46,832 nucleotides of DNA from Nitrospira sp. (GTDB lineage: Bacteria > Nitrospirota > Nitrospiria > Nitrospirales > Nitrospiraceae). The notes under the pieces are model-generated. The model did not search any database. It saw nothing but the letters and a program-made list of their open reading frames with translations, and was not told the origin of the DNA. A program made the translations under genes and the position numbers. Positions 44,164 through 46,832 of this stretch are shown piece after piece. The stretch spans positions 4,245 to 51,076 of the forward strand of contig JARFPM010000048.1 in NCBI GenBank assembly GCA_030444405.1. Direction: 5' to 3'. Position 1 is the first letter of the stretch, and each line of letters starts with the position of its first letter.

Positions 44164-44301
44164 TTCCAAAAGGAAAACTAGGGTTCCGGCTTCCTTTTAG
44201 GGGAGTGTCTGGTCCAAGAGTTTTCGGTCTCGCATAACGAGGCTCCACGGAGGGATAAAAGCCCGGGAGATCATGTACTGAGGTACATGGCCTTTTGGGA
44301 A
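44164..44301 (+). promoter_or_regulatory. Guanidine-I (ykkC) riboswitch, translational ON switch predicted
   Basis: The aptamer carries the class I guanidine signature blocks: ACTAGGGTTCCG (44177-44188), CTGGTCCAAGAG (44209-44220) and GGAGGGATAAAAGCCCGGGA (44249-44268). P2 is GTCTCG/CGAGGC (44227-44232 with 44238-44243). The outer helix pairs 44164-44173 with 44291-44301 (10 bp, one bulged G), enclosing an extra hairpin at 44272-44289. The same 3' strand can instead pair with 44310-44319, which contains half of the AAGGAGG site for the ATG at 44330. Guanidine binding should favour the outer helix and free the ribosome-binding site. Confidence 0.93.
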
Positions 44302-44329
44302 TTTGACCTTTCCAGAAGGAGGCTTTGTT

Positions 44330-45721
44330 ATGCATTTCCAACCCATAGTTCTTTGTTCTTTCCGTACCGGATCAATCAGACCTGCTGCCACGTCAGAGAG
44401 GTCTGTTATCTTAATGAAAGAGAGTCCGGATACGCATTTTCCTGCTTCCGCTACGAGTGCTCCCGAGACACTCCACCGCAGCCTCAGTCTCTGGAACAGC
44501 CTGACCATCGGCTTCGCGACCGTCTCGCCGGTTGCCGGGCTCTACGCCATCATAGGTGTCCAGACCATAGTGACAGGCGGCGGTTGGTTTGCTCCGCTGG
44601 CCCTCTGTCTGGTGATGCAGCTGCTGGTGGCGACCGTGTACGCGGAGCTGTCCTCGCAGATTCCGATCGCGGGGGGCGCGTACAAATGGGCAAGGCAACT
44701 CGCAGGCGCCACCACAGGCACGTATGCCGGGGCTATCTATGTCAGCTCCACCATCGCGATGCTCACCACGACCGCCTACACCGGTGGGATCTGGCTGGCA
44801 ATGTTTTTCGGATCAGGCAGCGGAACTGGAGTCACCCTCGTGATATGGGGGGCGGTGTTTATGCTCGTCTGCACCGTCCTCAACCTGGTCCACGTCTCGG
44901 TATTTAAGTTTCTCATTTCCCTGGGAGTCTATGCGGAAATCGTCGGTTCCTTCGGTGTTGCGCTGCTGCTATTTTTCTTTTTCCGGCAGCATGATTTCTC
45001 CGAACTGTTTGCACATCTCGGGACAGGAACTGCCCCCAGCCAGACCGCTGCGTTTCTGGCGGCGCTCGCTATTTCTGGTTGGGCTTTCATAGGCTTCGAT
45101 GCCTGCTCGACCATCGCCGAAGAAACTCACGAGCCCAAGCGGATGGTGCCGCGTGCGATCTTTTTCTCTCTCTGCATGGTGGGCAGCGTGGTGCTCTTCA
45201 ACTCTGCTGCCCTTACTCTCAGCTTCAACCGCGAGACCTTACAGCAGACGAACGCCGCGTCCGATCCTGTCACACCTGTGATCGTCGCCAACTTTGGCGC
45301 TTGGGCAGAAACCCCCTTTCTGGCAATTGTCATGATCGCGTTCCTGGCTTGTGGATCGTCCATGGTCCAGTACACATCCCGTATCGTGTTTTCCATGGCT
45401 CGCGAAGGAAGTATGCCGGCCGTCCTCAGTCGGGTCACTGCGGCGGGGGCTCCCCGGAACGCCGTGCTATTCACAGTTTTGCTGGCCACGCTTGGCTTGC
45501 TCTTCGGGCTCAATGATGAAGCCGTCGCCACGGTACTGGCGTTCGGCACGGGCGGCTTGTACGCCATGTTTGCGATGACCACGGGCGTTGGACTTTACAC
45601 TCGCCTCACTGGCCGCTGGGACCCCTCGTTAGGTCAACTGAAACTGGGCTCGTGGGGATTACTGATCAATACGGCTCGGAAGCATTCTAGGTTTGACCAC
45701 GCTGTATCTTCTGGTAGGTAG
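44330..45721 (+). CDS. APC-family permease (candidate guanidine uptake), C-terminus truncated
   Basis: A 463-residue amino acid/polyamine/organocation-type permease. ATG 44330 has a perfect AAGGAGG 7 nt upstream (44316-44322); ATG 44414 is an in-frame alternative at the usual family N-terminus. Ten membrane helices can be counted; signature segments include TM1 GFATVSPVAGLY, GGAYKWARQLAG and FSMAREGSMPAVLSR. The protein then stops after LGSWGLLINTARKHS with a polar tail, before TM11-12 of the usual 12. It sits behind a guanidine-I riboswitch and ahead of the guanidine hydrolase, so guanidine is the likely substrate (inference). As sequenced it may be non-functional or differently organised. 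Confidence 0.8.
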   Translation: MHFQPIVLCSFRTGSIRPAATSERSVILMKESPDTHFPASATSAPETLHRSLSLWNSLTIGFATVSPVAGLYAIIGVQTIVTGGGWFAPLALCLVMQLLVATVYAELSSQIPIAGGAYKWARQLAGATTGTYAGAIYVSSTIAMLTTTAYTGGIWLAMFFGSGSGTGVTLVIWGAVFMLVCTVLNLVHVSVFKFLISLGVYAEIVGSFGVALLLFFFFRQHDFSELFAHLGTGTAPSQTAAFLAALAISGWAFIGFDACSTIAEETHEPKRMVPRAIFFSLCMVGSVVLFNSAALTLSFNRETLQQTNAASDPVTPVIVANFGAWAETPFLAIVMIAFLACGSSMVQYTSRIVFSMAREGSMPAVLSRVTAAGAPRNAVLFTVLLATLGLLFGLNDEAVATVLAFGTGGLYAMFAMTTGVGLYTRLTGRWDPSLGQLKLGSWGLLINTARKHSRFDHAVSSGR

Positions 45722-45865: not shown

Positions 45866-46832
45866 ATGGCGAAAAAGAGAACATACCAAGGCAAGGTTCC
45901 ACTGCATGACAAATATGGTCCGGAAGCGAAATATGCAGTCGAGGCCGAGGCGCTGCTGCCGACCACGAAATATGAAGAAGAAATCGCTCGAGGCCTGGAG
46001 CTGGGCCTGCCTGGCGCCGATTCCATCAAAGATCGCCGGATTCCCACCTTTAGCCGAGGGGAGCTTCCTCACTTCGCCGGCATCAACACCTTTATCAAGG
46101 CTCCGTATGTCGAAGATGTCCGCAAGTGCGGCCAATACGATGTCGCCATTCTCGGGGCGCCGTTCGACGGCGGGACGACATACCGGTCCGGCACCAGGTT
46201 CGGCCCACAGGGAATTCGCAAGATTTCGGCGTTATACGGGACGTACAGCTTCGAGCTCGGGGTAGATCTGCGTGAATCCGTGTCCATCTGCGATGTGGGC
46301 GACGTCTTCACGATTCCCGGCAACATTGAGAAAACCTTCGATCAAGTCAGCAAGGGCGTGGGGCATGTCTATGCCAGCGGCGCGTTTCCCGTCGTACTCG
46401 GAGGGGATCATTCGTTAGGCTTTGCAACGGTCCGGGGCGTGGCGCAGCATCTGAACGGCAAGAAGCTCGGCATCCTCCACTTCGACCGGCATGTGGACAC
46501 ACAGGAGACCGATCTCGATGAACGCATGCATACCACACCCTGGTTTCATGCGACGAATATCCCCAACGTGCCGGCCAAGAATCTGGTTCAGATCGGCATC
46601 GGCGGCTGGCAAGCGCCCAGACCAGGCGTGAAGTCCGGCCGTGAACGCCAAACCACGATCATGACCGTGACCGACTGCGTGGAAATGGGCATCGAAAATG
46701 CTGCGAAGCAGGCGCTCGAAGTGGCATGGGATGGTGTTGATGCGGTGTGGTTGAGCTTCGACGTGGACTGCTTGGACGCGGCCTTTGTGCCGGGCACCGG
46801 TTGGCCGGAGCCAGGCGGGTTTCTGCCACGTG
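45866..46832 (+). CDS. gdmH: Guanidine hydrolase (Ni-dependent ureohydrolase type), cut by window end
   Basis: First 322 codons of an arginase/agmatinase-family enzyme from ATG 45866 (AAAGGGG, 5 nt away); no stop before the window ends. Metal ligands: H182 (GGDHS), D207/H209/D211 in FDRHVDTQE, D299 and D301 in SFDVDCLD. Differences from agmatinase: an N-terminal extension of about 85 residues, Arg in place of Ala in the DAHxD motif (DRHVD), a TQETDLDERMHT block after it and Trp313 in GTGWPEPGG where agmatinases have Thr. These match, from memory, the Ni-dependent guanidine hydrolase of cyanobacteria and Nitrospira, which yields urea and ammonia. Downstream HypA/B-like nickel accessory genes would be expected outside the window. 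Confidence 0.9.
   Translation, partial: MAKKRTYQGKVPLHDKYGPEAKYAVEAEALLPTTKYEEEIARGLELGLPGADSIKDRRIPTFSRGELPHFAGINTFIKAPYVEDVRKCGQYDVAILGAPFDGGTTYRSGTRFGPQGIRKISALYGTYSFELGVDLRESVSICDVGDVFTIPGNIEKTFDQVSKGVGHVYASGAFPVVLGGDHSLGFATVRGVAQHLNGKKLGILHFDRHVDTQETDLDERMHTTPWFHATNIPNVPAKNLVQIGIGGWQAPRPGVKSGRERQTTIMTVTDCVEMGIENAAKQALEVAWDGVDAVWLSFDVDCLDAAFVPGTGWPEPGGFLPR

Follow-up and report, generated by a model that had tools for sequence, protein, structure and literature searches.

Guanidine supports the growth of complete ammonia oxidizers. For the way in which they sense it, the published account assumes transcriptional control and calls the comammox riboswitch a transcriptional suppressor (PMC11410670). 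In that survey the riboswitch was present in 56 of 83 comammox genomes, always ahead of an APC permease; expression platform, start codon, terminator, and leader peptide do not figure in the text (PMC11410670). The window analyzed here (the whole stretch of 46,832 nucleotides from Nitrospira sp.) shares the gene order riboswitch, APC permease, guanidinase with this locus and is one more member of it. Which part of the leader carries out the regulatory decision can be asked from the following features:

44167 to 44271, plus strand: guanidine-I aptamer (RF00442), with helices P1 (44173-44178/44220-44225), P2 (44226-44232/44238-44244), and P3 (44246-44266)
44316 to 44322, plus strand: Shine-Dalgarno (SD) sequence AAGGAGG, conserved in the alignment of 46 leaders and preceding ATG 44330
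44330 to 45721, plus strand: APC-superfamily permease ORF (PF13520), 463 aa from ATG 44330, with a possible internal start at ATG 44414
45866 to 46831, plus strand: guanidinase (ureohydrolase, PF00491), cut by the contig end, with the frame open up to there

An Rfam search of the window detected one guanidine-I aptamer, matching RF00442 over its full length (model positions 1-107) with 94.4 bits, above the curated cut-off (gathering score 63). AGAG and the ACGGAGGGAUAAAAGCCCGGGAG segment agree with the family consensus, the subtype-diagnostic adenosine (position 46 of the crystal structure) lying outside this comparison. Downstream of the aptamer, the permease and guanidinase genes follow on the same strand. 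Compared with solved structures, the guanidinase ORF scored 734.7 bits with PDB 9fek and 509.8 bits with 7esr, but only 135.6 bits with the next, so that among solved structures it is nearest to 'agmatinase 2' proteins of the guanidinase type, as expected for a GdmH-type enzyme. We take these two structures to be the guanidinases of N. inopinata and Synechocystis, respectively. Judged from sequence, the window element is a guanidine-I riboswitch, as a preliminary description had proposed, with guanidine as the presumed ligand on account of its class and the genes.

Of 175 genomes examined in the family, 49 carried RF00442, and no other family was positive among the phylum sample. Of the 49 leaders extracted, 46 were aligned (the window copy and 45 homologous leaders), and 45 leaders were folded. 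These leaders were used to evaluate the switch put forward in the preliminary description, in which one strand chooses between two partners:

44164 to 44172, plus strand: 5' strand of the outer helix P0, pairing with 44292-44301
44291 to 44301, plus strand: switching strand CCTTTTGGGAA, able to enter the outer helix, the apo stem described below, or the SD hairpin
44310 to 44319, plus strand: 3' strand of the SD hairpin, with 79.3% of cells paired and poorly conserved

According to this proposal, CCTTTTGGGAA would either close the outer helix with TTCCAAAAGG (44164-44173; ON) or hide half of the SD sequence by pairing with TTCCAGAAGG in a hairpin at 44291-44319 (OFF). The strings and coordinates of both outer-helix strands were right, although the helix proper comprises nine pairs (44164-44172 with 44292-44301), since G44173 is also part of P1. 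Likewise, the geometry of the SD hairpin was correctly described (8-nt loop at 44302-44309, T-G wobble 44295-44315, bulged G44299). The homologous leaders kept only the first of the two pairings. For the outer helix, 92.3% of cells were paired over the 46 leaders, compared with 32-83% when one strand was slid; its covariation in fixed columns did not exceed that of shuffles in these leaders, and own duplexes gained only slightly over swapped ones (-11.7 vs -11.1). For the SD hairpin, two of ten pairs failed in about half of the relatives, no covariation beyond shuffles was found in the 46 aligned leaders, and own duplexes had no advantage over swapped ones (-10.2 vs -10.4). When leaders were folded with and without the aptamer as a constraint, the SD hairpin had a probability of 0.00 in the unconstrained ensembles of all 45 leaders; with the aptamer forced, it reached 0.64 in the window genome but a mean of only 0.03 over the set. 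The segment 44270-44345 folded in isolation does give exactly this hairpin, and its pair 44297-44313 flips from G-C to C-G in six leaders. Nevertheless, the window's SD hairpin forms best with the aptamer folded, the opposite of what an OFF state requires. Examined by pair counts, duplex swaps, and ensembles, this OFF state found no support, and we regard a switch built on it as very unlikely.

A different helix is predicted to hide the ribosome-binding site (RBS), by pairing it with the aptamer itself (P2:RBS):

44232 to 44246, plus strand: anti-RBS strand GCATAACGAGGCTCC, i.e. the P2 loop and P2 3' strand, forming 15 pairs with 44318-44333
44318 to 44333, plus strand: SD, spacer, and AUG, which the P2 strand would occupy in the predicted OFF state, as judged from pair counts, duplexes, and ensembles

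P2:RBS was paired in 96.1% of 684 cells, compared with 35-54% when slid, and contained four pairs with two-sided changes, occurring in four lineages. Shuffled alignments gave 0.9 such pairs, and only 1 of 500 reached the observed number. For scale, the aptamer helix P2 showed 98.1% of cells paired and two pairs with two-sided changes. The compensatory changes, readable without any alignment, comprise (i) GCATAGCGA with TCGCTATGC in L015; (ii) GCATGGC with GCCATGC in L039; (iii) GGTTCC with GGAACC in L042; and (iv) a single replacement of G-C by A-U in L040. These four leaders sit on separate branches of the permease tree. A pair in the loop portion was broken in L005, L030, L041, and L035. Duplexes formed with the leader's own P2 strand were 6-12 kcal/mol more stable than those with the P2 of other species in L015 (-23.6 vs -15.4 kcal/mol), L039 (-22.1 vs -10.3), and L042 (-22.2 vs -16.3).

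Such complementarity might arise as a by-product of a conserved aptamer facing a conserved SD and AUG, with no regulatory role, as CTCC of P2 naturally complements the GGAG of any SD sequence and the P2 loop CAUAA is frequent across the family (RF00442 consensus). The compensatory changes in L015 and L039, however, concern positions 44236 and 44237 with 44328 and 44329. The former belong to the P2 loop and the latter to the SD-AUG spacer; therefore, neither constraints on the P2 stem nor those on SD and AUG explain them. Moreover, when flanks were randomized with SD and ATG kept, just 10 of 20000 equaled the window's P2:RBS duplex. We consider a mere by-product to be highly improbable.

Folding pointed in the same direction. 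The unconstrained minimum-energy fold of the window leader already contains P2:RBS, and in the free ensembles of the 45 leaders its mean probability was 0.87; it was dominant in the apo ensemble predicted for each leader. As P2:RBS excludes aptamer helix P2, a conserved pairing that hides SD and AUG here competes, in silico, with the ligand-binding fold. Forcing the aptamer raised the mean probability of an unpaired AUG from 0.07 to 0.65 over the 45 leaders, whereas mean SD accessibility stayed nearly flat in the model (0.31 free, 0.27 with the aptamer forced), so that it is chiefly the AUG that is predicted to respond. Forbidding P2:RBS cost 5.5 kcal/mol on average (range 0.8-12.3) in a folding model that cannot score the tertiary contacts of the aptamer; in this model, the range is one that a ligand could tip. 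In folds of growing window transcripts, P1 and P2 appeared first, the apo stem from 44302 onwards, and P2:RBS replaced P2 only at 44334. This late appearance suggests that the decision is taken during or soon after transcription.

Two further elements occupy the segment between aptamer and SD sequence:

44272 to 44289, plus strand: hairpin CATGTAC-TGAG-GTACATG, paired in 46 of 46 leaders, with changes of the G-U type only
44262 to 44299, plus strand: predicted long apo-state stem, CCCGGGAG with CTTTTGGG, capped by the CATGTAC hairpin

The preliminary description had noted this hairpin, correctly placed within the outer helix, as an unusual addition to the class. A search of 84,980 species genomes for its motif GGGAGATCATGTACNNNNGTACATGG gave 37 stretches, every one in a Nitrospira-type record; given this confinement, the hairpin is a hallmark of the Nitrospira-lineage leader. 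Among these records, one is labeled Nitrosospira and one Nitrospirae bacterium. The record of L060 (CAADGK010000012.1), titled 'uncultured Nitrosospira sp. isolate CMX', bears a Nitrospira-type leader, and its title is probably a misnomer for Nitrospira. The apo stem comprises 16 pairs, takes in the aptamer 3' segment CCCGGGAG, and was paired in 98.2% of cells; covariation was sought in the aligned leaders and none was found. Its mean probability was 0.84 when P2:RBS was forbidden. In Niallia (L096), the same aptamer segment helps to build a perfect terminator stem with a T-rich tail behind it; in Pantoea (L091), a terminator with seven T is present. The CATGTAC hairpin seems to form the end of a longer apo stem, which also pairs the aptamer's 3' GGGAG at the site of the classical terminator stem elsewhere. 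From this resemblance, a plausible interpretation is that the 'extra' hairpin tops a stem derived from a terminator and no longer active in termination.

These parallels lead to the alternative of transcriptional control, with the apo stem at 44262-44299 or the hairpin at 44291-44319 acting as an intrinsic or Rho-assisted terminator. Guanidine-I riboswitches usually work by terminators (PMC12186494), the apo stem occupies the terminator-stem site of the Niallia and Pantoea leaders, and in activated sludge comammox communities guanidine raised the mRNAs of permease and guanidinase with a log2FC of about 2.6 (PMC11410670). However, a translational switch can also alter mRNA levels, and thus the induction data do not decide the matter. 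In contrast to the Niallia and Pantoea leaders, no intrinsic terminator was recognized between aptamer and gene: neither stem is followed by a U-tract, one terminator-like site was detected against 0.9 expected (i.e. chance level), and 45 of 46 leaders lack a run of five or more T before the AUG, the longest having four or less. The region after the stem is variable, whereas the complementarity of SD and AUG to P2 is kept. Terminator candidates at 44291-44319 and at the hairpin 44377-44405 were rejected for want of a U-tract and because such sites occurred at chance level. We rate termination as unlikely, though somewhat less so than the switch through the SD hairpin. The preliminary description had likewise favored control of the RBS, with translation ON in the presence of guanidine. 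The comparison of leaders supports this direction, but the predicted OFF helix is a different one, P2:RBS, which that description had missed.

What the controlled start codon opens was examined across the 46 leaders and led to these features:

44330 to 44413, plus strand: region homologous to a leader ORF (uORF), in frame with the permease in the window, unlike in 38 of 46 leaders
44377 to 44405, plus strand: hairpin CAGACCT/AGGTCTG over the permease's own SD sequence (AGAGAGG, 44395-44401), 87.1% paired

That AUG 44330 stands under RBS control had been proposed before, and the SD sequence is indeed present; in most relatives, however, this AUG opens a short leader ORF. An ORF of 23-30 codons, read in another frame than the permease, begins at the SD-linked AUG in 38 of 46 leaders; in all 38, its stop codon and the start of the permease overlap (ATGNTAA, ATGA, and similar arrangements). 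In the window, by contrast, the frame of the leader ORF is fused to the permease. The permease starts directly at the SD-linked AUG in seven leaders (L002, L013, L024, L032, L036, L037, and L042), and the six of them included in the permease tree form one clade (support 100/99). Because the deepest branches (L040, L026, L039, and L041) have the uORF, the fusion looks derived. Selection on the uORF peptide was not significant (ratio 0.64 vs 0.80 ± 0.13 in column shuffles, reached in 7 of 60), and a conserved functional peptide was rejected on this ground; what is kept is thus that ribosomes are brought to the start of the permease. The open frame and the stop position are kept as well, but a shuffled uORF body satisfies both with a chance of 0.46 per leader, and relatedness therefore limits the weight of this observation. 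The hairpin over the permease's own SD sequence was also considered as a regulator and set aside, as it showed no covariation beyond shuffles and a weak effect on the SD (unpaired 0.23, against 0.31 after shuffling of the upstream part).

Since P2:RBS is conserved, covarying, dominant in the ensembles, and incompatible with P2, the leader is predicted to act as a translational ON switch in which the aptamer's own P2 serves as anti-RBS. Taken together, the leader comparison and the folding model make it likely that the locus carries a guanidine-I riboswitch with a translational ON platform, with P2:RBS as the OFF helix and coupling through a leader ORF in relatives. In the absence of guanidine, the RBS, once transcribed, would invade P2 and become buried in the 15-bp helix, while the aptamer's 3' GGGAG would be drawn into the long apo stem beneath the CATGTAC hairpin. 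Guanidine would lock the aptamer and close P2 to invasion, and binding before the RBS emerges would presumably keep it so. Strand CCTTTTGGGAA would then be free to close the outer helix, the start region would be exposed, and translation would be ON. In most relatives, ribosomes would translate 23-30 codons, terminate on the permease start, and pass on by coupling; in the window genome, leader ORF and permease would be read as one frame. The mRNA rise in relatives may then follow from translation, through less decay or less Rho action, rather than from an intrinsic terminator.

If this reading is correct, guanidine control of the importer is translational, the ligand-binding fold itself is the anti-RBS, and in most species the switch operates by way of a leader ORF to which translation of the importer is coupled. 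It would also alter the choice of reporter, yield clear predictions for compensatory mutations, and provide a compact guanidine-I platform without a terminator. In addition, the permease start may be misannotated in Nitrospira genomes with this leader.

In the open-licence papers searched, we found no description of a P2:RBS platform or a leader ORF for the guanidine-I class. Classical guanidine-I (ykkC subtype 1) riboswitches have the same aptamer, the same ON logic, and a 3' GGGAG likewise engaged in the alternative stem, but usually stop transcription with a terminator (PMC12186494), whereas none was seen in Nitrospira, where the anti-RBS consists of the aptamer's P2 loop and 3' strand. With the PRPP riboswitch (ykkC subtype 2b), the Nitrospira leader shares a helix closing the aptamer ends (P0), which has been reported as absent from the guanidine-I aptamer (PMC6031431); the Nitrospira outer helix differs in enclosing the CATGTAC hairpin and in its guanidine gene context. 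In the B12 riboswitch of M. tuberculosis ppe2, as in the Nitrospira relatives, the switch lies upstream of a short leader ORF followed by the gene; there, the next gene depends on translation of the uORF and is expressed through termination-reinitiation. That system has another ligand and class and is an OFF switch, and its coupling was demonstrated by experiment (PMC11260477), whereas in Nitrospira coupling is deduced from the overlap.

Outgroup leaders, those of Burkholderiaceae being taken from plasmid records, gave a mixed picture. The RBSs of Pantoea and Caballeronia pair with the 5' strand of P2 (p = 0.007 and 0.044 vs shuffles, respectively), those of Paraburkholderia and Burkholderia match the P2 3' strand over 6-8 bases without significance, and in Rhizobium, Sinorhizobium, and Niallia P2:RBS was absent from the full fold. 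Possibly, though with more doubt than confidence, guanidine-I riboswitches in general have a translational layer in which the RBS invades P2; it would act alone in Nitrospira, gating a coupled leader ORF, and alongside a terminator in some Pseudomonadota. Five Pseudomonadota leaders (L091, L092, L093, L094, and L098) display terminator-like stems along with a short complementarity between P2 and SD.

The window copy itself departs from its relatives at one further feature:

44348 to 44361, plus strand: perfect 7-nt tandem duplication of GTTCTTT, whose frame change joins the leader ORF to the permease, a fusion that close relatives do not show

Compared with L053, the permease also shows an apparent 106-nt deletion at about 45675, by which the frame is shifted and the last membrane segments are gone. 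These two frame-affecting changes, in an assembly of 170 contigs, possibly reflect decay or assembly error. As the permease looks damaged, regulation in this particular genome may be a relict.

Individual leaders deviate in other ways. In L016, the SD sequence, spacer, and uORF start are lost just after the CATGTAC hairpin (CCTTTTGAATCCCC), leaving the aptamer without a regulated RBS; the same genome (G007) carries a second aptamer fragment at a contig end (L025). L045 has a P2 with an insertion and altered stem letters (GGCTTCG...CGAAGC), yet retains the RBS complement. Finally, a degenerate second aptamer (48 bits) was found at 1270-1380 of L052 (G166) ahead of another permease copy; its leader ATG has become ATA while the RBS region is still recognizable, as in a decayed paralogous switch.
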